The notes under the pieces: generated by a model
Databases searched by the model: none
Told to the model about the DNA's origin: nothing
Seen by the model: only the letters and a program-made list of their open reading frames with translations
Shown here: one piece after another, positions 14,975-36,545 of the stretch
Layout: every line of letters begins with the position of its first letter
How positions within the stretch are numbered: position 1 is the stretch's first letter
Program-made: the position numbers and the translations under genes
Source of the DNA: a virus
DNA length: 40,699 bases
Strand: one strand, 5' to 3'
Virus record (IMG/VR): IMGVR_UViG_3300049215_000066
Location: 1 to 40,699 of that record

Positions 14975-14976
14975 CG

Positions 14977-15009
14977 ATGAGCGCGCGAGCGCGAAGAGCA
15001 AATAAATGA
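14977..15009 (+). repeat. Family-1 hairpin/mini-ORF element, copy A
   Basis: The element sits between terminase and portal. Bases 14981-14992 fold as GCGC-GCGA-GCGC, a 4-bp stem with a GNRA tetraloop. The same bases are an ORF MSARARRANK (14977-15009; an in-frame ATG at 14968 would add three residues) whose stop overlaps the portal ATG as ATGA. Related copies are at 26147, 29868 and, inverted, 31015. Confidence 0.6.
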
Positions 15010-18187: not shown

Positions 18188-18270
18188 GCGTATTCGTTTG
18201 GTCGGCGCTGGGCGGGATGCCTTAGGGCATGCCGCGTCGCCTTTTCCGCGGTCCTCTAACCTGTCCAGCG

Positions 18271-18303
18271 CCGGCCGCCACGCTTAGAGGCGTGGCGAGC
18301 CGG
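18271..18303 (+). other. Very stable hairpin upstream of the Bro-N gene
   Basis: CCGGC-CGCCACGC (18271-18283) pairs with GCGTGGCG-a-GCCGG (18290-18303), 13 base pairs with one bulged A and loop TTAGAG. It ends 9 bases before the GAGGAG ribosome site of the gene at 18327. There is no T-run, so an intrinsic terminator is unlikely; a leader structure or protein-binding dyad are the alternatives. Confidence 0.5.
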
Positions 18304-23084: not shown

Positions 23085-23161
23085 TGCGGGGTAGGGCAGC
23101 CCGGTAGTTCGGCAGCCTCATAAGCTGCAGGTCGCTGGTTCGAATCCAGCCCCCGCAACCA
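23085..23161 (+). tRNA. tRNA with CAU anticodon, initiator-like body, CCA encoded
   Basis: The 77 bases fold as a complete cloverleaf: acceptor TGCGGGG/CCCCGCA, D-arm GGGC/GTTC, anticodon arm GCAGC-CTCATAA-GCTGC (anticodon CAT at 23119-23121), T-arm GCTGG-TTCGAAT-CCAGC, then ACCA. The D-loop, variable loop, R11:Y24 type pair (G11:U24) and CUCAUAA loop are those of initiator tRNA-fMet. However, position 1:72 is a paired U-A instead of a mismatch, and the anticodon stem lacks the three G-C pairs needed for initiation. It may read AUG in elongation, or AUA if C34 is modified to lysidine. It lies on the coding strand within the head operon. Confidence 0.9.
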
Positions 23162-23510: not shown

Positions 23511-23938
23511 GCTACGCGACGATCCAGAACATGATCGACCGCGGCTATGGCCAGGAGCTGATCGAGCTCACCGACACGGTGAATGATCCGCCGACGACGA
23601 TCAACGAGCAGACGGTGCAGGACGCGTTGGATGACTCCGACGCGGAGATCAATTCCTACATCACCGCCGCAAACCTGACAGTCCCGCTCAATCCCGTGCC
23701 GCGCGTCATCGTCACCCGCGAGATCGAGATCGCGCGCTACAAACTCTGGCGCGATCGTGCGAGCGAAAAGGTGCAGGCCGATTACGCCGGCGCCGTTGCG
23801 TGGCTGAAGATGCTCGCGGCCGGCCAGGTGCAGCTTGGCGACAACATCGCGCCCACCGAACAGGCCGCGGAGTCGACGCCGAAGATCGTCTATCCCAACA
23901 CGCGCACCTTCACGCGCGGCTCGCTGAGTAATTTCTGA
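23507..23938 (+). CDS. DUF1320 head-tail protein (Mu gp36-like)
   Basis: 143 residues from GTG 23507, which overlaps the stop of the small ORF; the ATG at 23474 lies in the repeat and is not favoured. The family pattern is present: ATIQNMIDRGYGQELIELTD at the start, then DSDAEINSYITAANLTVPL and IARYKLWRDRASEKVQADY. DUF1320 proteins follow the capsid gene in Mu-like phages and act in head-tail joining. Confidence 0.88.
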   Translation: MSYATIQNMIDRGYGQELIELTDTVNDPPTTINEQTVQDALDDSDAEINSYITAANLTVPLNPVPRVIVTREIEIARYKLWRDRASEKVQADYAGAVAWLKMLAAGQVQLGDNIAPTEQAAESTPKIVYPNTRTFTRGSLSNF

Positions 23939-23973
23939 TGCGCTCAAGCAGCAAAGCGGTAGCTCTCAAATGA
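23938..23973 (+). repeat. Family-2 hairpin/mini-ORF element, copy 1
   Basis: The ATG at 23938 shares a base with the DUF1320 stop. The ORF reads MRSSSKAVALK and its TGA overlaps the next ATG (ATGA, 23970-23973). Bases 23940-23965 fold with GCGCT against AGCTC (four of five pairs) and a GCAA loop. Other copies are at 30430, 31476 and 34366. Confidence 0.6.
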
Positions 23974-24551
23974 CCGGCGTGTCGATGGAAGTCACGCTGG
24001 ACAGCGCGGACGCGACCGACGCGATGCAGCGGCTGGCGGAATTCGGGGACGATCGCGCGCATGCCATGTGGGACGCGATCGGCGCGGCGATGGTCAGCTC
24101 CACGCAGCTGCGCTTCCGTGGCCAGCATGGGCCGGACGGGACGGCATGGAAGCCGTCCGAGCGCGTGTTGAAACATGGTGGCGCAACGCTGATCGAGCAT
24201 GGTTATTTGCTCGCCTCGCAGACGCACAACGTGCTGGAAGGCAACGAAGGCGTGCAATGGGGTTCGCCAATGGTCTACGCAGCGATCCATCAAGCCGGTG
24301 GCGATATCCACCGCGAGGCGCATGAGCAGACGATTTACCGCAAGGCGTCAAAGGATGCGCTCTCGCCGCACTTCGTGAAGAAGAAACAATCCAACTTCGC
24401 CCAGGACGTGCACGTAGGCGCTTACAACATTCACATTCCGGCGCGTCCCTATCTCGGCATCGACGCGGCCGACGAAGCGACCATCGAGGGCATCGCACAG
24501 CGCCATCTCGAAGCTGCCCTGCTCGGAACTTCGCCAGGGAGCGTGCAGTGA
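23970..24551 (+). CDS. Phage virion morphogenesis protein (Mu G / gp31, tail completion)
   Basis: 193 residues. Family landmarks: LRFRGQHGPDGTAWKPSER, then HGYLLASQTHNVLEGNEGVQ, YAAIHQAGGD and the C-terminal IPARPYLGID. In the P2/Mu families such proteins complete the head-proximal tail end. The ATG at 23970 is fixed by the ATGA overlap with the mini-ORF. Confidence 0.9.
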   Translation: MTGVSMEVTLDSADATDAMQRLAEFGDDRAHAMWDAIGAAMVSSTQLRFRGQHGPDGTAWKPSERVLKHGGATLIEHGYLLASQTHNVLEGNEGVQWGSPMVYAAIHQAGGDIHREAHEQTIYRKASKDALSPHFVKKKQSNFAQDVHVGAYNIHIPARPYLGIDAADEATIEGIAQRHLEAALLGTSPGSVQ

Positions 24552-24982
24552 TTTCGGCCGCACAAATCCAGGCAGTCCTCGCCGGTAACGCGGCGTTCCT
24601 GTTCGTCGGGGGCGCCGGCGATTTCGCCAGCGCAGCCGAGCAGCTCAAGACGACGCGAAGCCTCTTTGTAATGCCGCCTGTCGAAAAGGCGCAGCCCAAC
24701 AGCACGGGAACGCAGGTCATACGCCAGCGATCGGTGGCATTCGCGCGCGTGGTCGCAGGCTTCATCGTTCGCAGCGCGACGAAAGCAGATCAGTCCGGCG
24801 ACGTCGACGCCGTGCGCGAAGCGTTGAAGACCGCGCTGATCGGATGGACGCCCGACGCGTCCACGCATGAGCCGATGAATTTCGTCGGCTGGAATGCACT
24901 CGCCGCGGGCAAAGATGGCACGACAGTCTTCTACGCCTGCGATTTCACCACCGCTTATTACTTGAGGGCGATCCCGGCATGA
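24548..24982 (+). CDS. Tail terminator-like protein, 144 aa
   Basis: GTG start at 24548 overlapping the previous stop (GTGA). The chain has the mixed alpha/beta look of the small tail-terminator family (VIRQRSVAFARVVAGFIVR, then TTVFYACDFTTAYYLRAI at the C-terminus), similar in size to Mu gp37/lambda U-like proteins. The location just before the tail tube gene supports this. The family is assigned by position and shape. Confidence 0.6.
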   Translation: MISAAQIQAVLAGNAAFLFVGGAGDFASAAEQLKTTRSLFVMPPVEKAQPNSTGTQVIRQRSVAFARVVAGFIVRSATKADQSGDVDAVREALKTALIGWTPDASTHEPMNFVGWNALAAGKDGTTVFYACDFTTAYYLRAIPA

Positions 24983-25194
24983 TGAAAGAAAAACCCGTAT
25001 CGCGGCCGAGTGGCCGCATCCTGGTCGGCAAGGATGGCACGCGCGAGCGCGTCGAGATCGATACGGCCGACAACGCCGACAACAGCCGCGCGCATGGCTA
25101 CGACACCGAGCCTGGGCGCGCGTTCAACGCCCGCAAGCGCGCGGGCATCCCCGCTTCTGCTCCACAGCCTGCAGCGGAAGGAGACGACCAATGA
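24979..25194 (+). CDS. Small polar protein before tail tube, 71 aa
   Basis: ATG at 24979 overlapping the previous stop, and ATGA overlap with the tail tube gene. Very polar and Arg/Asp-rich (GKDGTRERVEIDTADNADNS). The position is that of DUF2635-type genes, but the sequence does not clearly fit them. Function unknown. Confidence 0.6.
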   Translation: MMKEKPVSRPSGRILVGKDGTRERVEIDTADNADNSRAHGYDTEPGRAFNARKRAGIPASAPQPAAEGDDQ

Positions 25195-26141
25195 CGCTGG
25201 GCAATCCCAAACTTTCATCGCGCAAAGTCCTGCTCGCCGAGATCGAGTCGAGCTATGGCGTCGACGTGATCGTCAGCAACCCGATGGGCGCGCATGGCAT
25301 CCTGGCGAGCAACTTCACCTTCACGCCGATGGCCGCGACGGCGACGAAGCGCCAGCGCGCCTATCAGAACTGGGGCGGCGATCCGTCGGAGATCACGCAG
25401 AAGCATGCGATGATCACGTTCGACGTCGAAGCCGCCGGCTCGGGCGCGGCGGGCACCGCGCCCCTCTTTGGTCCATTGCTGCGCTGCTGCAATCTGGAAG
25501 AAACAATTGTCGCCGCCACCAGCGCGTCTTACACGCCGCTCACCGGCGACACGGAAAGCACGTCGCTGCATTTCTACCAGGACTCGCTTTATCACCGGCT
25601 CACCGGTTGCCGTGGCACGGTGTCCCTGAAGATGAGCGGCGGCGGATTGCCCATGTGGTCCTTCGCCATCACGGGCCTGTGGAACGCAGCCGCGGACGGC
25701 GCGCCACCCGATGTTCACGCCGATCTCGAAGCGTTCATTGACGCGAGCGAAGTCAACCTCGCAAACACGACGTTCACTTTGTTCGGCCAGGCGGTTGTGC
25801 TCGACTCGCTGCAGATCGACCTTGGTAACAGCGTCGAATTCCGTGATCGCCCGAACGCGGCCTATGTCGCCGTCACCAATCGCGTGATGACCGGGAAAAT
25901 CGTCTTCGAAGCGCCCACGGTCGCCACTTACGACTGGGAAACCGCCGCGGCCATCAAGACCACGGGCGCACTGGCCCTGCTCCAGGGCACGACGGCCGGC
26001 GACAAGCTCCAGATCGCCGCGACGCGCGTGCAGATCGAAAACCCGAGCTACGCCGACCAGAACGGCGTGCTTTGCCTGTCGGCAAACATAAACATCCTGC
26101 GCACCGCGGGCGACGACGAAATCACATTCACCATCAAGTAA
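25191..26141 (+). CDS. Major tail tube protein, siphovirus type
   Basis: 316 residues. It opens KLSSRKVLLAEIESSYGVD and shows the tube-protein beta pattern (GCRGTVSLKMSGGGLPMWSF, then FAITGLWNA; later EFRDRPNAAYVAVTNRVMTG). Such proteins stack as hexamers around the tape measure. Order (terminator, tube, chaperones, tape measure) is canonical for non-contractile tails; there is no sheath gene, so the virion should be a siphovirus. Confidence 0.85.
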   Translation: MTLGNPKLSSRKVLLAEIESSYGVDVIVSNPMGAHGILASNFTFTPMAATATKRQRAYQNWGGDPSEITQKHAMITFDVEAAGSGAAGTAPLFGPLLRCCNLEETIVAATSASYTPLTGDTESTSLHFYQDSLYHRLTGCRGTVSLKMSGGGLPMWSFAITGLWNAAADGAPPDVHADLEAFIDASEVNLANTTFTLFGQAVVLDSLQIDLGNSVEFRDRPNAAYVAVTNRVMTGKIVFEAPTVATYDWETAAAIKTTGALALLQGTTAGDKLQIAATRVQIENPSYADQNGVLCLSANINILRTAGDDEITFTIK

Positions 26142-26146
26142 TGCCG

Positions 26147-26185
26147 ATGAGCCCGCGAGGGCGAAGAGCAAACAAAGGAGTTTGA
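26147..26185 (+). repeat. Family-1 hairpin/mini-ORF element, copy B
   Basis: GCCC-GCGA-GGGC (26151-26162) is a 4-bp stem with a GCGA tetraloop. The ORF reads MSPRGRRANKGV (26147-26185; ATG 26141 is in frame too). The element ends in the GGAG (26177-26180) that serves the TTG start at 26187. Relative to copy A one stem pair is changed from G-C to C-G on both sides. Confidence 0.6.
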
Positions 26186-26186
26186 A

Positions 26187-26510
26187 TTGACCAGGTACGC
26201 ATTCCGCAAGGCGTCCGAGCCGCGCATTGTCAAATGGACTTGCACAGCGACTGTGCCCGTCGACGCCGGCAAGACCGAAGAACAAACGATCAACGCGACC
26301 TACCGTCTGGTCGATCCCTCGAAGATGGCGCAGGCCGTCGCCGCACCGAACCTGATGGGCCAGAATGGCGACGTTCTGCAGCTCAGGGAATGCCTGGACA
26401 GCGTCGAAGGCGTGGAGAGCCTGGACGACGTCTACGCCGATCCCATCGCCGTCAGCGCGCTCGCACGGGGCTATTGGGAGATGCTCAAGGGGCGCCTGCC
26501 AAAAAACTGA
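26187..26510 (+). CDS. Tail assembly chaperone, short form (lambda G-like), 107 aa
   Basis: Start codon TTG at 26187; GGAG at 26177-26180 is spaced six bases, which decides this rare start. The product (TATVPVDAGKTEEQTINATY, then LRECLDSVEGVESLDDVYAD) has the size of tail assembly chaperones and lies between tail tube and tape measure. The stop at 26508-26510 directly follows a slippery sequence, so a fraction of ribosomes should continue into the second part. Confidence 0.8.
   Translation: MTRYAFRKASEPRIVKWTCTATVPVDAGKTEEQTINATYRLVDPSKMAQAVAAPNLMGQNGDVLQLRECLDSVEGVESLDDVYADPIAVSALARGYWEMLKGRLPKN
26501..26507 (+). other. Programmed -1 frameshift heptamer A AAA AAC
   Basis: In the chaperone frame the bases read CCA AAA AAC TGA, an ideal -1 slippery heptamer placed immediately before the stop. 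Slippage enters the frame that stays open to 26899. A G/G-T type -1 shift at this exact place in the gene order is conserved in tailed phages with lambda-like tails. Confidence 0.85.
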
Positions 26511-26899
26511 AGGCCGTTGCTCTCGCGCTCGCGGGCGAGGGTGGCGGGAAGGCGGCGATGGATGAGGAGACCATCGCCGAATTGAGACGGATGGGCGTGA
26601 GCGAGAAGAAGCTCACAAAGGCGCGTGCGAAGAACCGTGAGCAAAAAATCGAAGTCGAGCCGGAGAACTGGAATGCCGTGCGCGTCTTCATCGCGCTTCA
26701 AACGCAATGGCATTACCAGCCGCGCTCGAACGGCAAAGTCTCGCTGCTTTCGCGCACGGGCCTGGACTACACGGCCGTTCCGGTTGTTTGTTCCGCTCAC
26801 GCCCTCGATCTCGACGAAGAGCTGCTCACACAGATCCGCGCGCTGGAGTCGGAAAGCCTCGCGATCTACGCCGAACGCGATCGGAAGATGCTGGCATGA
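26507..26899 (+). CDS. Tail assembly chaperone extension (lambda GT-like), reached by -1 frameshift
   Basis: After slippage reading continues CTG AAG..., giving KLKAVALALAGEGGGKAAMD and then 110 more residues (EELLTQIRALESESLAIYAE near the end). The fused product is about 237 residues. An ATG at 26558 could also start the second part alone. In lambda the G-T fusion binds the tape measure and recruits tube subunits, then leaves. The stop overlaps the tape measure ATG (26896-26899). Confidence 0.8.
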   Translation: MKAVALALAGEGGGKAAMDEETIAELRRMGVSEKKLTKARAKNREQKIEVEPENWNAVRVFIALQTQWHYQPRSNGKVSLLSRTGLDYTAVPVVCSAHALDLDEELLTQIRALESESLAIYAERDRKMLA

Positions 26900-29871
26900 G
26901 TAGCGCCGGCGCACAGCTCCAGGCGTCGCTCACACTCAAGGGCGATTCATCGGCGCTGGTCGGTGCGGCCACCGAAGGTGCAGCCGCGCTGAACAAGCTC
27001 TCGGGAAGCGCCAATGCGGCATCGGCGTCCGGAGCCGCAATGGCGCCCGCGTTCAGCGCCGCCACGAAAGCGATCCAGGGACAGGCCGCAGCGTCAGCCG
27101 CGGCGAGCCAGGCTCTCACCGCAAGCGGCGCGGCCGAGGTCGAGGAAATCGCGCGCCTGACCCAACTCGTCAGCGCGAGCACGGCCACGACGACAAATAT
27201 CCGCGCGCTGTCAGTGGCGCATGGCGAGTACAATTCGACGGTCAACGCGGCGCGCGAGCTTCTCGCGGCCGGAGTCCTCAACCAGTTTCAATATGGGGAG
27301 GCGGTGCGCGCCGCATCCGCAAAGCTCGCGCTCGCAAACGTGGTCCACGATGCGGGCGCGGCGGCGCTTGCGAAAGAAGCCGGGGGCTCCGCCGCCCTGG
27401 GCGCCGCACAGCGCGCACTCGGCGAAGGTGCTGAAGAAACCGGCGTGCACATCAGTGGTCTCTCGCGCCAGGTCGAACGTCTGGGAGAAGATGCCGGCGT
27501 TGGCGGCGGGGCGATGTTCGCGCTCGTGCACGGGGTTGAAGATCTTGCGGAGGTTGCCGCAACGCCTGCTGGCGGCATCGCTATTGCTGCCGCGGCGATC
27601 GTCGGTCTCGTTGCAGTTGAGCAGCTTTATGAAAATTCGATCAACAAGGTGACGGTCGCGGTCACCGCACATGGCGACGCGTTGCGCCTTGGCACTGCCG
27701 ATTATACCAAATTTGCTTCGGAGATAGCGGCGGCCGCGGACGTCTCGGATAGCGAAGGCCGTGTCATCGTCGCGGCATGGGTCAATGCCGGCGCGCAGTC
27801 GTCGCAGGCGATGAAGAGCGCAGGGGAAGCGCTCAAGGGATACGAGGTGCTGACGGGACAGACGGCCGATCAGGCTGTCCAGAGCATCGGCAAGATGTTC
27901 ACCGATCCCGCGTCGGCCATCGACGATTTGAACAAACAGTACGGATTTCTCTCTTCCGCGGAGACGGCGCATATCGAGCACATGCAGGCCGAGGGCAACC
28001 TCGCTGGCGCACAGGGCGCCGCGATGGATGATCTCAAAAGCCATGTCATTCCGCTCGCTGACAAGACAACGGCGTTGGCTACCGCCTGGGACAGCGTCAA
28101 GAAGGCGATGGAGAACGCCTTAAGCTGGGCGGGAAATCATCTGCAACTGAGCAAAAACCCATTCTGGAGCCTGCTCGGGGTCGAAGACAACGGCCCCCCC
28201 GACGCGAAGAAACAGGTTGATGCAGCCCTTGCAGCCGTCCAGGCCCAGGATCAAGCAGAGGAGGAGGCACATAACAAGCTCGCTCAGTCCGTCGCTGACT
28301 ATGCGGGTGGCTACAATGACGAGGCCGAACGGAAGATAATTCAGGGCCACATCGACGCGGCCCACGCGCTCCTCGCGGAGGCGCAGAATGCGAAGGAAAC
28401 GACCGACGCCAATCATGCGCTCGCCTATGCACAGCAACAGCTTGCTGATCTCGACAAGAAAAGCACCGATACCAAGGATAAACTCACCGACGCACAGCGC
28501 GCCTATCGAGACGAAATCAACGAGCTCATCAACAAGACTGGACCCGAAGCGGTCGCGCTGGCGATGGACGACGCGTCCGCGTTGCAGGCCCAGGCTGCCG
28601 CGAGCGACGGCACGGCGCTCTCCATAAAGAATTTGCAGAACGCGTATGACATCGCCAAGGCCGTGCAGCCCTACAACACGGCGCTCCAGAAGGCCGCGGT
28701 TCTCTACAAAGAGAACGTGCTCAGCGCTTCGCAGTATGACGCCGCTGTCAGGGCACTGAATTCCGATATCGCCAATATTACTGTCGCGATGAAGGAGCAG
28801 CAACAGGCGCAAGCCGAGATGGAGGCGAAGCAACAGGTCCGCTCCGGCTTCGAAGGCTTGAACAATTTCTATTCCTCCCTCGACGCGGCGAAACAGGGCA
28901 TCCAGGCCGACGCGGCTTACATCGAACAGAAGAGCGCCGAAATCCGCGACATGCAGATCGCGGACCTTACGGCCACGGCGCAGGCGCAGATCAACAATCA
29001 CGACTGGTCGCTCGGCGATTGGGACCATTATCTGGAGCACGTCCTCGATATTCTGGATAACGGAGTCGCCAAAGCCTATCAGGACGACGCCGCGCGTCAG
29101 ACAGCATGGGCTGCGGGAATCAAGCGCGGACTGACGCAGCTCACCAACGATCAGCAGAACTGGGCGAAAACCTCTGAGAGCCTCGTGACGGGCTTCTCAA
29201 GCGAGTTCGAGGACACGCTGGTCAAGATGGTCGAAGGCGGCAAGAACGCGCTGGGCGATTTCTTTACCTGGGTCGAAGAGCAGCTTTTGAAGCTGATGTA
29301 TCAGCAATATCTGGCTAGTTATTTCAACAGCCTGTTCGGAAGTGTGGTCGGCGATCTCGGCGACATCCTTGGTATCGGCGGAGCCGGCGCAACGGCATCC
29401 GCTGGCACAGGAAGCGGGATCGTGGGCGTCGGGGTTCACCACACGGGCGGCGTTGCCGGATCGCCTTCAGTCACGCGGGACGTACCGCTCGCGCTCTTCG
29501 CCAACGCGCCGCGCTATCACTCGGGCGGCATCGTCGGCCCAGGCGAAGTGCCGATCATCGCGCAGGAAGGCGAGCGCATTCTCACCGCGACGCAGGCCAT
29601 GACGGTTGACGCGGCCCTCTCGCGGCCGATCGTGCTGCAGATGCCGGCGAACGCAAACAGCAACGATCGCCCGTTCGCGGTGAACATTCATGAGGCGCCC
29701 GGCACGCAGGCGCGCACACAGAGCACGCCGGGCCCGAATGGTTCCTTCAGCCTGGATGTCTTCGTCGACCAGATCGACAAGAGCCTGGCTCAGAAGAGCA
29801 GGAAAGGCCGGAGCGCGCTCACGCAGTCGCTTGAGAACACCCACGGCATCAGACGGGCGCCGATAGGATGA
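26896..29871 (+). CDS. Tail tape measure protein (lambda H-like), 991 aa
   Basis: The ATG at 26896 overlaps the chaperone stop; the longer frame from 26707 is a shadow of the chaperone. The first 150 residues are Ala/Ser-rich coiled coil, and a hydrophobic segment is near 225-245 (GGIAIAAAAIVGLVAVEQLY). The lambda-type block FTDPASAIDDLNKQYGFLS and the C-terminal LKLMYQQYLASYFNSLFG and SGGIVGPGEVPIIAQEGER are typical of gpH-family tape measures. Length predicts a tail of about 150 nm at 1.5 angstrom per residue, by the usual rule. Confidence 0.92.
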   Translation: MSSAGAQLQASLTLKGDSSALVGAATEGAAALNKLSGSANAASASGAAMAPAFSAATKAIQGQAAASAAASQALTASGAAEVEEIARLTQLVSASTATTTNIRALSVAHGEYNSTVNAARELLAAGVLNQFQYGEAVRAASAKLALANVVHDAGAAALAKEAGGSAALGAAQRALGEGAEETGVHISGLSRQVERLGEDAGVGGGAMFALVHGVEDLAEVAATPAGGIAIAAAAIVGLVAVEQLYENSINKVTVAVTAHGDALRLGTADYTKFASEIAAAADVSDSEGRVIVAAWVNAGAQSSQAMKSAGEALKGYEVLTGQTADQAVQSIGKMFTDPASAIDDLNKQYGFLSSAETAHIEHMQAEGNLAGAQGAAMDDLKSHVIPLADKTTALATAWDSVKKAMENALSWAGNHLQLSKNPFWSLLGVEDNGPPDAKKQVDAALAAVQAQDQAEEEAHNKLAQSVADYAGGYNDEAERKIIQGHIDAAHALLAEAQNAKETTDANHALAYAQQQLADLDKKSTDTKDKLTDAQRAYRDEINELINKTGPEAVALAMDDASALQAQAAASDGTALSIKNLQNAYDIAKAVQPYNTALQKAAVLYKENVLSASQYDAAVRALNSDIANITVAMKEQQQAQAEMEAKQQVRSGFEGLNNFYSSLDAAKQGIQADAAYIEQKSAEIRDMQIADLTATAQAQINNHDWSLGDWDHYLEHVLDILDNGVAKAYQDDAARQTAWAAGIKRGLTQLTNDQQNWAKTSESLVTGFSSEFEDTLVKMVEGGKNALGDFFTWVEEQLLKLMYQQYLASYFNSLFGSVVGDLGDILGIGGAGATASAGTGSGIVGVGVHHTGGVAGSPSVTRDVPLALFANAPRYHSGGIVGPGEVPIIAQEGERILTATQAMTVDAALSRPIVLQMPANANSNDRPFAVNIHEAPGTQARTQSTPGPNGSFSLDVFVDQIDKSLAQKSRKGRSALTQSLENTHGIRRAPIG

Positions 29872-29909
29872 GCGTGCGAGCGCGAAGACAAACGAAGAGA
29901 CCTGGATGA
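29868..29909 (+). repeat. Family-1 hairpin/mini-ORF element, copy C
   Basis: GCGT-GCGA-GCGC (29872-29883) is a 4-bp stem closed by a U-G pair with a GCGA tetraloop. The ORF MSVRARRQTKRPG starts by ATGA overlap with the tape measure stop and ends by ATGA overlap with the next gene (29906-29909), a perfect translational bridge. Confidence 0.6.
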
Positions 29910-30430
29910 CCGCGACCTGTCCGACATGGCCAAGCTCGATCCTGCCGGCGCCGTCGCTGTCGGACAACCTAGCGCAGCAATATCCAAATCTCATCACGCG
30001 CACGGATTTCGACCAGGGACCCTCGCGACAGCGCAGCAACTATCAGGGCGGTCCCACCACGCAGTGGATCGTCTGGCCGATGAATGCGGTGCAGCTGCGC
30101 ATCTTTCATGGCTTCTGGCGCAACGAGATCAGCAATGGCGCCGACTGGTTCTATCTGCCGATCTTCGCGGACAATAGCTACCAGACATTTCTGGTGCGCT
30201 TCGTCGACGTGGCGCGGCCGATCAGCTCAACGTCGGGCGGGCAGATCACGCGCAACGCCGGCGAATGGATGTATGCGGCCGTCGTGGAGACGATGGACGA
30301 AACCGCTCCGGATGAAACAGAGACTGCATCGCTGATGCTGACTTACATCGGCGCGTGCCAGGCCGCGGTGCTCGACCAGGTCGTGGCGCAGATGCGCTCG
30401 GCCGTGCAAACGCTGGGGAGCAATCTGTGA
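29906..30430 (+). CDS. Minor tail protein, 174 aa
   Basis: ATG at 29906 within ATGA. Beta-rich with WPMNAVQLRIFHGFWRNEIS and ADWFYLPIFADNSYQTFLVR. It lies between tape measure and DUF1833, where lambda has M and where Rhizobiales/Rhodobacter-type siphoviruses and GTAs have small baseplate components. The exact family is not recognised. Its stop shares a base with the mini-ORF at 30430. Confidence 0.7.
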   Translation: MTATCPTWPSSILPAPSLSDNLAQQYPNLITRTDFDQGPSRQRSNYQGGPTTQWIVWPMNAVQLRIFHGFWRNEISNGADWFYLPIFADNSYQTFLVRFVDVARPISSTSGGQITRNAGEWMYAAVVETMDETAPDETETASLMLTYIGACQAAVLDQVVAQMRSAVQTLGSNL

Positions 30431-30468
30431 TGCGCTCAAGCAGCGAAGCGGTAGCGCAGCAAAGATGA
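30430..30468 (+). repeat. Family-2 hairpin/mini-ORF element, copy 2
   Basis: GCGCT (30432-30436) pairs with AGCGC (30453-30457) and the loop holds GCGA. The ORF MRSSSEAVAQQR starts on the last base of the previous stop and its TGA overlaps the DUF1833 ATG (30465-30468). Confidence 0.6.
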
Positions 30469-31010
30469 GCGCGGCGGGTTACACCTACACCGACGATGCG
30501 CGCGAATATATGTTTTCGCCGGCCGGCGCGGATGTGATCTTCGACACGATCGAACTGCGCCATCCCGCTTTCGTCGATGAACACGGCAACCCGATCGCGG
30601 TGCGCTTCGTCAACAATTTCTCCAACATCGAAGCGACGCTCGAAGAGAACGCGCCGCTCAATGGCGGCCAGACTGTTCTCTTCACCGCTGCACCGTTCGA
30701 GCTGGTGAAGGCCGACTCGCCGGAAAGCGGCCTGCCGCAAGCGCAGATCGCGGTCTCGAATGTGATGAGCGAAGTCTCGCCATATCTGGCACTCGCCGTT
30801 TCGAGCGTGGCTCCCGTGCAATTGTCGCTGCGCCAGTTCCTTGCCGACGATCTCACCGAGCCGTGTTTCGTGATGCACGGGCTCACCTTCGACAACGCCC
30901 AGGCAAACATTCGCCGGGTGAGCGCCACGGTCGGCTTTCAGGACCTGCTCAACATGCCGGCGCCGCGCGAGCTCTACACCCTGGAGAATTCCCCTGGTCT
31001 ACGGCGCTAA
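30465..31010 (+). CDS. DUF1833 minor tail protein
   Basis: 181 residues. The DUF1833 pattern is visible: DTIELRHPAFVDEHGNPIAV, then VRFVNNFSNIEATLEENAP and a C-terminal FQDLLNMPAPRELYTL. These proteins occupy the lambda L position before the NlpC/P60 gene and are part of the tail tip. Start fixed by the ATGA overlap. Confidence 0.85.
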   Translation: MSAAGYTYTDDAREYMFSPAGADVIFDTIELRHPAFVDEHGNPIAVRFVNNFSNIEATLEENAPLNGGQTVLFTAAPFELVKADSPESGLPQAQIAVSNVMSEVSPYLALAVSSVAPVQLSLRQFLADDLTEPCFVMHGLTFDNAQANIRRVSATVGFQDLLNMPAPRELYTLENSPGLRR

Positions 31011-31064
31011 TAGTTGCTCTTCGCCTGACGGCTCATCGTGCGCTGACACGCTCTCATCGCGCGA
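31011..31064 (-). repeat. Family-1 element in inverted orientation, with a degenerate neighbour
   Basis: Read on the reverse strand, 31037 to 31015 gives GATGAGC-CGTCAG-GCGAAGAGC, the family-1 frame with a GCC/GGC stem and GTCA loop, and even a mini-ORF MSRQAKSNY. Next to it, 31060-31037 on the same strand contains a weaker GATGAG...GCGCAC copy. This is the only gap of this size between tail genes. Inverted occurrence suggests a mobile REP-like nature. Confidence 0.5.
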
Positions 31065-31068
31065 TGAA

Positions 31069-31509
31069 ATGAAAGCCGTCTGGTTCGTGCGGGACGTGAT
31101 CGGCTTGCCGTGGAGCGACAACGGCCATGGACCGGACTCTTACAGCTGCTGGGGCCTGACACGCGAGTGCCAGCGCGCGGTCTTCGGCCGCGATCTGCCA
31201 ATCATCAATCATCCGGCGACGCTGCGTTCGCTGATCGAGACCATCGAACATCACGAGATACGCGACGCGTGGCCGGAGGTTAAAAAACCGGTACACGGCG
31301 ACCTCGTAACAATGACGCACGCGCGCCACCCGCACCACATCGGAGTTTATCTGGGGCTCGATGGCGGCCGTGTCCTTCATTCGACCGAGCAAACGGGCGT
31401 GATGTGCTGTTCGCTCACGCAGCTCAAGCTCGAAGGCTTCGTGCGCCTGCGCTTTCATCGATACAGGGCGCCCCTGCGCTCAAGCAGCGAAGCGGTAGCG
31501 CAACAATGA
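31069..31509 (+). CDS. NlpC/P60 family tail-tip peptidase (lambda K-like)
   Basis: 146 residues. The catalytic Cys27 is in DSYSCWGLTRECQ and His90 in HPHHIGVYLGLDGG, with His104 a likely third residue. Such proteins sit in the tail tip and are thought to cut peptidoglycan or cross-links during DNA entry. The last 11 residues (LRSSSEAVAQQ) are encoded by a family-2 hairpin element, so the element has become the C-terminus. ATG 31069 is chosen over ATG 31064, whose frame stops after two codons. ATGA overlap with the next gene. Confidence 0.9.
   Translation: MKAVWFVRDVIGLPWSDNGHGPDSYSCWGLTRECQRAVFGRDLPIINHPATLRSLIETIEHHEIRDAWPEVKKPVHGDLVTMTHARHPHHIGVYLGLDGGRVLHSTEQTGVMCCSLTQLKLEGFVRLRFHRYRAPLRSSSEAVAQQ
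31476..31501 (+). repeat. Family-2 hairpin element, copy 3, fused into the NlpC/P60 gene end
   Basis: Identical in its 26 bases to copy 2: GCGCT (31476-31480) pairs with AGCGC (31497-31501) around a GCGA loop. Unlike the other copies it is not preceded by a stop and is read in the same frame (RSSSEAVAQQ) as the end of the peptidase. Confidence 0.65.
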
Positions 31510-34364
31510 CAGTCCGCATCGCTCACATTCGCAATCCGCTCGCGCCGCAGCTGGAGATGCGGACGATCGACGTCGAGCCCGGCGTCGTGCTGACGTGCGC
31601 GCTTGCCGATGCGGAATGGAAGCTGCCGCCATCGACGTTTCTGCTGCGGCGCGACGTTGTCGATCGCGAGATCGATTGGGAGCATGTCGAATATCCGGAG
31701 ATATTCGTTCGGCGCTCCGATTGGGACCTTGCAACGCTGGAAGACGGCGATTGCGCGGTCCTGATAACTCTGCCGCAGGGCGGAGGCGGAGGCGGCGGCT
31801 CGCAGGTTCTCAAGATCGTAGCGACCATCGCCCTCATCATCGCGGCGGCCGTATTCGCCGGGCCGCTCGGCGCGAGCCTGGCAGACGGTAGCCTGGGCAC
31901 GGCGATCGGGCTAAGCGCGGCTGCCGGGAGCGCCATTGTCGCATCGTCCATCATCGTGGGCGGCCAGCTGATCCTTTCGGCAATCCTGCCGCAGCCGAAA
32001 CCCGCGCAGCAGAAAGCCGCGTCGCCCACCTATACGTTCGGGCTTCAATCGAACCAGGCGCGCATCGGGTCGGCCGTGCCGGAATGGTTCGGCCTCTACA
32101 ACCAGGTCCCCGACCTGCGGGCGCAGCCCTGGATCAATTACGAGAACAACGAGGAGGACCTTTACGAGCTTTTCTGCCTGGGTAAAGGCAGCTATCAAAT
32201 CCAGCAGATACGCATCGGCACGAACGCGATCGCCACGCTCAACGACGAAGGCGTTCTCGTGCCGACGGGCACCTATCCCGAGATCGAGTGGCAGATCGCG
32301 GGGCCAAATGAGACCCTTAGCCTCTTCCCCGACAACATAGTTACTTCGACCGACGTCAGCGGGATCGAACTCCTTGGCACGAACGAAGACGATTACGGAC
32401 CGACAGACTGGTTCGTCGTGTGCCCGCCCGGCACTGAGACGCACGCCATCGCCTTCGACATGACGCTGCCCGGCGGCCTTTATCACTCCACCGACAGCGG
32501 CAACATCAATCGCGCCGAAGTCGATTTCGAAGCCTGGGCGCAGCCGATCGACGATTACGGCAATCCGACCGGCGACGCGATTATCATTCTCGACACCCAT
32601 CTCGTGCTTGCCACCAACACGCCGCAACGGCTCACCTATCACTGCGTCGTGGACTCCGCGCGCTATCAGGTGCGGATGGAGCGCACAAATCCCAAGGGCA
32701 CCACGACCTCCATTTCCGACACGATCGAATGGCTGTCGCTGCGCGCAATCCTGCCGAGCGATCTGAATTACGGCGACTGCACCATGATCGCGATCGCCGC
32801 GACGGCTACGGCCAGCCTCAACGGCTCTTCGAGCGACCAGTTCAACACCATCGCCATGCGCGAACTGATCACGCCGGTGCTGATCGATGGCGCCTGGCAT
32901 TGGAGTGAGTCGCCGCAGCCAACGCGCTCGATCGGCGCCGCGGCCTATTACCTGCTTACATCGAGCAACAATGCCGACATCGATCCGTCCATGATCGATG
33001 GCGACTGGCTGCTTGCTTACGAGCCCGTGTGGCAGGGACGCGGAGACACATTCGACGGCGGTTTCGACACCCAGGGCAGCTTCTGGGACAATCTCAATCA
33101 GTGCCTGAATGTCGGCCGGACGCAGGCGCTTCCCGGACCGCTGATTTCCTTCGTGCGCGACGAACCGAAGACGCTCTATCGCTGCGCGTTCTCGTCGCTT
33201 CAGACGGCGACGGACAGCTTCACCATCAACTATGTGTTTTTCGACGAGAACAACGCCGACGCTGCGAATGTCACTTACATGGACGAAGTCAACTGGCAGT
33301 CGAACACGGTGTTCTGCAAGCTGCCCGGCTCGACCTTGAACGAAAGCACGGCGCCGCAGGTGAACGCCTTCGGCATGGTGAGCCGCGACCAGGTGTACCG
33401 GACGTGGATGTATAACTTGGCGGCAAGTTGCTACCGGCGCCAGTTTCCGCAATTCGACACCGAGCTCGACGGCCGCGTGTGCCAGCGCGGCGATCTGGTG
33501 AAGATCAGCCACATCATGCCGCAATGGGGCGCAGCGGCTTTGGTCATGGCGCTCGAAGAAGACGACGAAGACGGCGATCTGATCACACTCTCGGAGCCGT
33601 GGACGCTCGACAGATCAACGCCCGTTGTTACCCTGTCGACGCCTGACGGTTACGTCGCCGGGCCTGCAACTGTCACCATCGTCGACGATGGCGCGACCAC
33701 GCATCGCGCGCAGCTGCGCTTCACAGCTTCCTGCACATCCGACCAGGGAAACTTCGCCGGCATGGAGCCGCGCGATTGGGGCATCTGGGGCGACACGGTG
33801 CGCGGGCTGCAGCGCGAGCGGCCGAAATGCCTGATGGGAACAAACACAACTTCGAGCGTCGACGCGCTCGTTGTTTCGATGACGCCGCAATCGGGGTTGA
33901 ACGCGACGGTTGCGTGCGTCGTCGATAATCCGGCGGTGTACACGGCCGACCAGGGCACGGTTCCCGAGCGCGCGGAAGAGCCGCCCGACGATCCGGCCGA
34001 GGATCTCCAGATCGTGGCGCTCAACATCCGCGAAGTGCCGGCGTTCGATGGTCTGACTGCGATGTGCTCGGTGACCATCGCCGGCGCGGCCGACCAGACG
34101 GGCTTTTCCTACCGCACGCGCTACCTGAATGGTGGCACCTGGTCGGGAATAACAAACGTCACGGGCCGCGTGTTCTCATTCCTGTCCGGCCGTGGAACGA
34201 TCCAGCTCCAGGTGCGCGCGCTCGGCACATCGTCGATCGGCGACTGGTTCGAAACCGACATCGAGGCCGAAGGCTATATCGAAGTGGTGAACGCGACCTT
34301 CGATTTCAGCCAGCGCGCCAACTCCGGAAATCTGGCGCTCATGCAAGCGGCGTGGATGAACTGA
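31506..34364 (+). CDS. Host-specificity protein, TipJ/lambda J-like, 952 aa
   Basis: ATG at 31506 overlapping the previous stop. An N-terminal beta-grasp-like part (residues 1-95; CALADAEWKLPPSTFLLRRD) ends in a Gly-run, then a membrane-like segment (IVATIALIIAAAVFAGPLG, about 102-150) as in lambda I/J fusions. Then comes the J-type baseplate hub (FGLQSNQARIGSAVPEWFGL; YELFCLGKGSYQIQQIRIG). The C-terminus has fibronectin-like beta domains (SYRTRYLNGGTWSGITNVTG). It forms the tail tip and contacts the receptor. An I-like N-terminal region appears to be fused, since no separate I gene exists. Confidence 0.9.
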   Translation: MTVRIAHIRNPLAPQLEMRTIDVEPGVVLTCALADAEWKLPPSTFLLRRDVVDREIDWEHVEYPEIFVRRSDWDLATLEDGDCAVLITLPQGGGGGGGSQVLKIVATIALIIAAAVFAGPLGASLADGSLGTAIGLSAAAGSAIVASSIIVGGQLILSAILPQPKPAQQKAASPTYTFGLQSNQARIGSAVPEWFGLYNQVPDLRAQPWINYENNEEDLYELFCLGKGSYQIQQIRIGTNAIATLNDEGVLVPTGTYPEIEWQIAGPNETLSLFPDNIVTSTDVSGIELLGTNEDDYGPTDWFVVCPPGTETHAIAFDMTLPGGLYHSTDSGNINRAEVDFEAWAQPIDDYGNPTGDAIIILDTHLVLATNTPQRLTYHCVVDSARYQVRMERTNPKGTTTSISDTIEWLSLRAILPSDLNYGDCTMIAIAATATASLNGSSSDQFNTIAMRELITPVLIDGAWHWSESPQPTRSIGAAAYYLLTSSNNADIDPSMIDGDWLLAYEPVWQGRGDTFDGGFDTQGSFWDNLNQCLNVGRTQALPGPLISFVRDEPKTLYRCAFSSLQTATDSFTINYVFFDENNADAANVTYMDEVNWQSNTVFCKLPGSTLNESTAPQVNAFGMVSRDQVYRTWMYNLAASCYRRQFPQFDTELDGRVCQRGDLVKISHIMPQWGAAALVMALEEDDEDGDLITLSEPWTLDRSTPVVTLSTPDGYVAGPATVTIVDDGATTHRAQLRFTASCTSDQGNFAGMEPRDWGIWGDTVRGLQRERPKCLMGTNTTSSVDALVVSMTPQSGLNATVACVVDNPAVYTADQGTVPERAEEPPDDPAEDLQIVALNIREVPAFDGLTAMCSVTIAGAADQTGFSYRTRYLNGGTWSGITNVTGRVFSFLSGRGTIQLQVRALGTSSIGDWFETDIEAEGYIEVVNATFDFSQRANSGNLALMQAAWMN

Positions 34365-34365
34365 C

Positions 34366-34401
34366 ATGTCCTCAGGCAGCGAAGCGATAGGACGCAAGTA
34401 A
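34366..34401 (+). repeat. Family-2 hairpin/mini-ORF element, copy 4 (diverged)
   Basis: GTCCT (34368-34372) pairs with AGGAC (34389-34393); two base pairs of the stem differ from copies 2 and 3 on both sides, so pairing is kept. The loop GCAGCGAAGC is unchanged. The ORF MSSGSEAIGRK ends at 34401, one base before the next ATG at 34403. Confidence 0.6.
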
Positions 34402-34799: not shown

Positions 34800-36545
34800 A
34801 TGAGAGCGTTCGCAAAAGCCTCTTTGATAGCAGCGGGAATTGTGCTCGCCATCGACATTGTCGTCCATGCGAGCAGCACGGGCTACAGCGTCGCGGGCAT
34901 TCTCGGCCTTGAGAACATCATGGGTTCGCAGATCAATCCCGCGACCTCCGATCACCAGGCGACGGAAGATAGCTATCTCTCGACGATTGCGACGAATACG
35001 ACGGGCGGCCTGTCAGGCAATGTCGGCATCAAGAACACAGGCGGCTCGCAGATCGACCCGGCCACTTCGGGAAACCAGTCGACCGCCAACAGCTATCTAT
35101 CGACGATTGCGACCAACACGACGGGCGGTCTTTCGGGCGCGGTCAACATCAAGAATACGGGCGGATCGAACATCGATCCCGCGACATCGGGAAACCAGAC
35201 GACAGAGCTTTCCGATCTCGCGACGATCGCGACGAACCAGGCCGACGTCCATGCGAGCGGTTCGGCCGCTCTCGGCACGCTGAACGCGACCTACGGCGTC
35301 ACGCTCGATCATGCCGGCACAACCAGCATCAGTGTCAGCGCCACAACCTGGAACGGCGCCATTCTCACCATCGAGTCCGAGGGCGCGGACGGTTCGACCT
35401 GGAACACGAAGACCTGCGGGAATTCGACCTCGAACTATTCGACCATCACCGCAAATGGCAATTACATCTGCAAAACGGCCGGCGATCGCGCGCTGCGACT
35501 GCGCGTCTCGACGGGCGGTTCGCCTGGCGCCACATCGGCCAGCATCGCCTATGACGCCACGCCGGTCGTCGCCTATATCGAGCTGTCGAAGCCGCAGAAT
35601 TTCCTGATGTCAGACGGCGCCGACATCGTCGAAGGCGCCACGACGGACGGCGTTTGCTCCAACAGCGCCGCGCCCTGCACCAATCACGCGCTGCTTGCGG
35701 AGATCGAGCAGGATTTTCACAGTTCCGCTGCGCAGGCCGTCAAAGGCGATGTCGCGGACTACGGCTCGCCGGGCCCTGCTTCGGTGCAGGTCTCGTGTGT
35801 GTACGGGCCAACCACGGGCACATCCGGTCAGAAAATCCCGCTCAATTGCGCTGACAATGCCGGCGATCTCGGCGTCTCCGTCCAGAACACGCCGGCCGTG
35901 ACGTGCTCGGCCTGCGCAAAAGACACGACCGCCACAAACGAGCAGGGCACGGAAGGCGGCGGCTCAGCGCCGTCGAAGTTCAAACTTGTCGGCGGCGCTT
36001 ATCATTCTTCTCCGATTACGCTCACAAACGGCCAAGCGGCCGAGTTTCAGTTCGACAGCCGCGGCGACGTGAACATAGATTGCGGCGGATCGACCTGCGG
36101 CAAGGACAGTTCCCTCACCAGCATACTGACGGCGCTCGGCTCGTCCGTGATGCAGAACACCGGCGGCACGGTCCAGACCGTGCCCGGTACTTCGGGCGGC
36201 CTGTCGGTCAAGAGCTACATCGTCGCCAATAACACCACGTCGGTGGCGATCGACGCGAGCGCGGGACAGGTCTACGCCGTGACGGGCTACGCGATCCACG
36301 CCTCGCAGCCGATCTGGCTCAAGCTTTATGACGCCGCCGCCCCATCCGTGACATGCGGCTCCGGCACGCCGAAAGAACGGCATCTGATCTCGACGGCATC
36401 GACGGGCGCGGGCCTCGTTCTTCCGATCGGATCGGGCGTCCCCTACGCAACCGCCATAACCGGCTGCGCGGTACAGGGCATAGCCGACAATGATGCGACC
36501 GCGCCCGCTGCCTCCAGCTACGTCGTGAACGTGTATTACAAATGA
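34800..36545 (+). CDS. Putative exported receptor-binding/tail protein with 40-residue repeats, 581 aa
   Basis: ATG at 34800 after GTGAGGGACCC. The N-terminus (FAKASLIAAGIVLAIDIVVH) is a signal peptide or membrane anchor. Residues 42-148 are two and a half repeats of 40 residues built on GSQIDPATSGNQ...YLSTIATNTTGGLSG. The rest is beta-rich and Cys-rich with paired Cys (DCGGSTCGKD, TCSACAKD), suggesting disulphides formed outside the cytoplasm. Repeated DPATxxNQ plus TIATN segments are seen in phage fibre-like proteins. The target is unknown. The stop overlaps the next ATG. Confidence 0.7.
   Translation: MRAFAKASLIAAGIVLAIDIVVHASSTGYSVAGILGLENIMGSQINPATSDHQATEDSYLSTIATNTTGGLSGNVGIKNTGGSQIDPATSGNQSTANSYLSTIATNTTGGLSGAVNIKNTGGSNIDPATSGNQTTELSDLATIATNQADVHASGSAALGTLNATYGVTLDHAGTTSISVSATTWNGAILTIESEGADGSTWNTKTCGNSTSNYSTITANGNYICKTAGDRALRLRVSTGGSPGATSASIAYDATPVVAYIELSKPQNFLMSDGADIVEGATTDGVCSNSAAPCTNHALLAEIEQDFHSSAAQAVKGDVADYGSPGPASVQVSCVYGPTTGTSGQKIPLNCADNAGDLGVSVQNTPAVTCSACAKDTTATNEQGTEGGGSAPSKFKLVGGAYHSSPITLTNGQAAEFQFDSRGDVNIDCGGSTCGKDSSLTSILTALGSSVMQNTGGTVQTVPGTSGGLSVKSYIVANNTTSVAIDASAGQVYAVTGYAIHASQPIWLKLYDAAAPSVTCGSGTPKERHLISTASTGAGLVLPIGSGVPYATAITGCAVQGIADNDATAPAASSYVVNVYYK
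34923..35246 (+). repeat. Tandem 120-base coding repeats (2.7 units)
   Basis: Units 34923-35042, 35043-35162 and a partial 35163-35246 encode similar 40-residue blocks beginning GSQINPATS, GSQIDPATS and GSNIDPATS. They may vary in number between related phages and so change fibre length. Confidence 0.8.

Follow-up and report, generated by a model that had tools for sequence, protein, structure and literature searches.

The window, the whole 40,699-nt stretch analysed here, is a 40.7-kb virus record from a transposable, Mu-like phage that has tail genes. Pfam domains of a Mu transposase, a Mu F-like protein, a terminase, a Mu gp36-like protein, a virion morphogenesis protein, DUF1833, NlpC/P60 and a gpJ-like tip protein were identified in it. 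The original prediction of four 26-nt hairpins starting at 23940, 30432, 31476 and 34368 was confirmed, with 0 such hairpins expected in 100 shuffles of the sequence. A covariance model constructed from 61 copies of the element recovers only these four in the window with scores of 36-45 bits, and the next-best window match scores 9.9 bits.

All four copies are on the plus strand. Copy 1 (23940..23965; 36.1 bits) has the core CTCAAGCAGCAAAGCGGTAG between arms GCG/CTC, and a broken C.T pair that had been overlooked interrupts its stem. Copy 2 (30432..30457; 44.5 bits) has the consensus core and arms GCG/CGC, which are shared by copy 3 (31476..31501). Copy 4 (34368..34393; 39.4 bits) has the core CTCAGGCAGCGAAGCGATAG and arms GTC/GAC, and its stem is compensated as had been proposed, with two pairs changed relative to GCG/CGC. 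The mini-ORF MRSSSKAVALK (23938..23973, plus strand) arises from copy 1 and lies between the Mu gp36-like gene and the virion morphogenesis gene, with its start and stop overlapping these flanking genes. Copy 2 gives rise to the mini-ORF MRSSSEAVAQQR (30430..30468, plus strand), which precedes the DUF1833 gene, and copy 4 to MSSGSEAIGRK (34366..34401, plus strand), downstream of the gene for the gpJ-like tail tip attachment protein. The two-sided stop/start overlaps noted earlier are present at 23938-23973 and 30430-30468. The peptides read as claimed, except that the 31476 copy is not a separate ORF and forms by in-frame fusion the LRSSSEAVAQQ C-terminus of the NlpC/P60 protein. An ATG flanks the element on both sides at three of the window junctions.

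The element has a constant anatomy consisting of a 3-bp outer arm, the motif CTCAAGYA/GRTAG, a small apical hairpin and an A-rich tail. The outer arm is free in sequence and its complementarity is nearly always kept. In exact-core copies, chosen by core alone, the successive flanking bases are complementary in 98, 98 and 92% of cases and the fourth base is at the 35% background. Sixteen different arm triplets occur with their perfect complement, and the arms are perfectly paired in 232 of 274 copies compared with 42 when the arms are shuffled. The conservation of base pairing suggested by the window copies is thus much stronger than could be seen from the window. In the best-fitting structure, a 5-bp stem is followed by a three-base bulge (CAA), two 2-bp helices separated by an A.G mismatch, and a triloop. 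This structure pairs 94.9% of alignment cells, includes six pairs with double changes and exceeds all shuffled and slid versions, a score that leans towards pairing because the 61 alignment rows were chosen by hand to be diverse and passed a weak filter for pairing; the arm figures are free of this lean. Double changes are confined to the outer arm in the energy-preferred fold, and for the inner helix the covarying structure is better supported than the alternative fold. The GNRA loops of the original prediction are not retained: G12-C18 and C13-G17 are paired, these pairs undergo double changes to A-U and U-A elsewhere, and the usual loop is a GNA triloop. Longer paired hairpins can take the place of the apical one while CTCAAGYA and GRTAG remain constant, and apical lengths of up to 17 nt occur that have no counterpart in reversed-sequence controls. 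The GTAG lies within the hairpin at the 3' arm, where its A pairs with T5 and its last G with C4. G.U pairs are scarce in the arms, at about 2% overall and 3.2% at arm position 2 against 13.6% expected by independence, a hint that complementarity is kept at the DNA level or by templated repair.

Tandem copies are common with a period of ~36 nt. The unit of ~36 nt seems to include the A-rich tail, because tandem arrays repeat the tail at this period and reversed copies upstream of a tRNA-Ser gene carry the complement of the tail. In composite forms the same outer motif encloses a long apical insert (GGACGCGAAGCACAGCCGCAGGCTGAACC or a similar sequence). Such forms were seen at L251:1861-1910, at L251:1654-1703 and near the core match in L175, and are possibly a larger relative of the element.

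The exact 19-nt core was found in 65 other viral stretches; bacteria, scanned with one genome per species, add at least 118 stretches. Among the matches listed are Erythrobacter, Qipengyuania, Caulobacter, Asticcacaulis, Rhodobacterales, Hyphomicrobiales and Robiginitomaculum, with Nitriliruptorales and Euzebyaceae as actinobacterial carriers. The element also occurs in plasmids, in 23S rRNA genes and in frame within proteins such as PheS. Its presence is patchy: a scan that tolerates up to two mismatches detects it in only 13 of 289 alphaproteobacterial genomes, one of which, 1.7 Mb in size, holds 67 copies. In the class of a Nitriliruptorales MAG, the covariance model detects the element in 19 of 61 genomes, with a maximum of 136 matches per genome. 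A search of an annotated phage collection returned no record similar to the window region or to the 36-mer, and no paper was found in the open-access literature by core DNA sequence or peptide. The hairpins match no Rfam family at the gathering threshold and the L063 array matches none at E values up to 5; the sole sub-threshold Rfam match overlapping a hairpin in the window is to a trypanosomatid snoRNA.

Comparison with relatives distinguishes occupied from empty sites. Two sister phages, L201 and L202, have about 80% protein identity to the window phage in the query gene. The element is absent from junction 1 in L201 (L202 is without coverage there), absent from junction 2 in L201 and kept in L202, and absent from junction 3 in both. 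At junction 4, L201 has a diverged copy and L202 has none. All four junctions are therefore empty in at least one sister phage with gene order kept, the finding named in advance as evidence against a conserved junction element. A tail-gene-specific role is likewise not borne out, since the hairpins are also in chromosomes, plasmids and rRNA and close relatives lack copies without a change in gene order. A terminase gene is occupied in only 1 of 80 sequences fetched by protein similarity, the other 79 being empty; the insertion is 33 nt long and keeps the frame when aligned with nine empty relatives that are 83 to 91% identical in the flanks. A 23S rRNA hairpin tip contains the element in Cereibacter and several relatives, and the same tip is empty in Rhodobacter CZR27, Falsirhodobacter and Ruegeria. 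The flanks of a Cereibacter plasmid copy match hundreds of plasmids because these flanks are 23S rRNA. Upstream of one tRNA-Ser gene, 0 to 3 copies in both orientations are found across species of one genus, and two A. excentricus plasmids differ in the element with flanks too diverged for a clean boundary. The PheS gene of a Novosphingobium MAG (L148:4200-4378) contains four tandem in-frame copies that encode (P)ASSSEAVGQNN units.

Bacterial copies in open frames (n = 23) are all in the sense orientation, with 16 read in the SSSEAV frame and 7 in the LKQRSG frame. Core substitutions in the SSSEAV frame fall on the third position in 49 of 181 cases and elsewhere in 132, where the expected third-position share is about 6/20, and some apical sequences shift the reading frame. 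The proposed conservation of the peptide fails on these grounds: third-position changes are unbiased, other frames are used and many copies are intergenic or in rRNA. Strand counts, based on gene calls from a purpose-built hexamer model rather than annotation, gave 20 sense versus 0 antisense copies in bacterial genes (p = 2e-6) and 33 versus 11 in bacterial intergenic regions (p = 0.001), both with related sites removed. The bias hints at a link to transcription. It is weak in viral contigs, with 19 versus 8 copies in intergenic regions and 4 versus 5 within genes. The mini-peptides of the window are best explained as by-products of the element sequence.

Single arm pairs dominate some copy-rich genomes in which the core varies: G560 has GTG/CAC at 30 of its 32 sites, G059 has GCC/GGC at 14 of 18, and G498 has GAC/GTC at 6 of 7. 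Such dominance would be expected if the proliferating unit carries its arms along. Other copy-rich genomes, such as those of the alphaproteobacteria G322 and G312, have several arm pairs.

The copies thus form one family with constant anatomy, polymorphic sites, in-frame insertions, tandem arrays and arm-pair dominance in several copy-rich genomes. Each hairpin is probably a copy of a dispersed insertion element, miniature and non-autonomous, that consists of a 26-nt hairpin plus A-rich tail and that multiplied in alphaproteobacteria and actinobacteria and entered their phages and plasmids. It resembles a miniature selfish element and seems to be undescribed. From sequence comparison, the copies would have spread by insertion. 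A folded single strand, either RNA or single-stranded DNA bared by transcription or replication, may be recognised via CTCAAGYA/GRTAG, and recognition through this internal motif would explain why only the complementarity of the arms, and not their sequence, is kept. In the window phage, four late-gene junctions seem to have tolerated insertion because two forward frames of the element are without a stop and the element supplies usable start and stop codons. No mobilising gene was found; neither a Y1 transposase nor a reverse transcriptase tracks the element. Mobility by a reverse transcriptase was rejected since RVT_1 matches show no association, occurring in 5 of 18 element-positive and 11 of 41 negative genomes. 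Over 105 sites there was no clear excess of flanking direct repeats that would mark a target-site duplication. A bolder proposal, that this is a new class of minimal mobile element (~36 nt) in which the folded single strand is recognised by the constant internal-loop motif, the arms serve as a free lineage tag, the machinery is transcription-coupled and the system is common to two bacterial phyla and phages, is tentative and somewhat doubtful.

A cis-acting RNA motif placed by selection at gene junctions in the sense orientation, whether a protein binding site, an RNA processing signal, an mRNA stability element or a translational coupler, would fit the sense-strand bias in bacteria and the constant internal motif between two variable helices. 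RNA folding parameters also give the covarying outer stem in the main copy and DNA parameters do not. This explanation is nonetheless unlikely: close phage relatives lack the element at the same junctions with unchanged gene order, the insertions in PheS, 23S rRNA and other genes share no function, presence among alphaproteobacteria is patchy, and the few arm G.U pairs point to complementarity that is maintained in DNA or by a template. A route with no dedicated enzyme, in which replication slips or switches template at a stable hairpin and horizontal transfer contributes, accounts for the tandem arrays, the almost always perfectly complementary arms with few G.U pairs, the two orientations at one site and the lack of an associated gene. 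One arm pair over 30 separate sites of a genome and arrival in unrelated genes are not easily explained by it, which makes this route quite improbable.

The idea that selection acts on an 11-residue peptide, either free or attached to proteins as a tag, draws on the presence of the SSSEAV frame in all four window copies and in 16 of the 23 intragenic bacterial copies. Substitutions without third-position bias, use of the LKQRSG frame in the remaining 7, and the many copies that are intergenic, in rRNA or altered in frame by other apical sequences render it very unlikely. REP elements have a GTAG or CGTC unpaired tag at one end (PMC3733652) and are tied to TnpA_REP (RAYT) transposases (PMC3733652, PMC8266576). 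The present element resembles REP/BIME sequences as a small hairpin with internal mismatches, many copies per genome and a GTAG. That GTAG is inside the hairpin and not an unpaired tag at its foot, the outer stem varies freely, and Y1 (REP-type) transposases were found in 0 of 11 element-carrying genomes. With two defining features missing, the end tag and the Y1 enzyme, assignment to the REP/RAYT system was rejected, and movement of a REP element by such a transposase is hardly credible here.

The miniature insertion element is best explained as similar in kind to the palindromic elements of Rickettsia, the nearest published kind. Rickettsia palindromic elements (RPE) are 105-146 bp and enter protein and RNA genes (PMC2229807). 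Like the element described here, RPE and Wolbachia palindromic elements are dispersed palindromic repeats that lie between genes, within structural RNA genes and, with the frame kept, within conserved protein genes. In-frame protein insertions (PheS, the 33-nt terminase insertion and others) and a structural RNA insertion (23S rRNA) were found; the length differs, at 26-36 nt, in this comparison of described features. Other differences from RPE are the constant internal motif combined with free arms, the tandem arrays and a range that covers two phyla, plasmids and phages. The SAS/ESAS of cluster K mycobacteriophages are reportedly short, partly inverted repeats just upstream of phage start codons. 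That position does not characterise the element, which unlike SAS/ESAS is also chromosomal, intragenic and in rRNA and is absent from the same sites in close phage relatives. The copies that sit at a hypervariable hairpin tip of 23S rRNA in Cereibacter and in further Rhodobacterales recall 23S rRNA intervening sequences, and a further copy (L227:1331-1356) lies near the 5' end of a 23S gene. Unlike intervening sequences, the element is found beyond rRNA too, and it is much smaller than the 428-nt Coxiella intervening sequence (PMC4990558). A resemblance to the tRNA D-arm (CUCA/GGUAG) was dropped since the pairing register differs. There may be a likeness to the receptor of the GAAA tetraloop and to the d(GCGNAGC) mini-hairpin, which is stable, and the 36-nt units of type III antitoxin repeats are a further candidate likeness.

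If the insertion reading is correct, the element would be among the smallest known dispersed insertion elements, unnoticed in two phyla despite its locations in PheS, terminase and 23S rRNA, and would constitute a repeat common to phages, plasmids and their hosts. Proteins would gain short tags with their frame intact, and the element would provide a natural experiment on hairpin movement and the growth of tandem arrays. It would also be a warning for the interpretation of mini-ORFs between phage genes, which could be insertion by-products.

Other features were observed in the window. A C4 antisense RNA is located at 18195-18281 (Rfam RF01695, 60.8 bits), and a tRNA-Met (CAT) gene at 23085-23161 lies between phage structural genes. 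Three tandem 120-nt repeats (100, 73 and 63% alike) at 34896-35255 are in the gene that follows the tip region. A second hairpin family is present at 14976-14997, 26146-26167 and 29869-29890 with the pattern GATGAGC-NN-GCGA-NN-GCGAAGA followed by an A-rich tail, and one copy has a GCCC/GGGC stem in place of GCGC/GCGC. An exact match to this pattern was detected in just two further viral contigs, L240 and L241, and in L241 another similar hairpin is directly behind the match.
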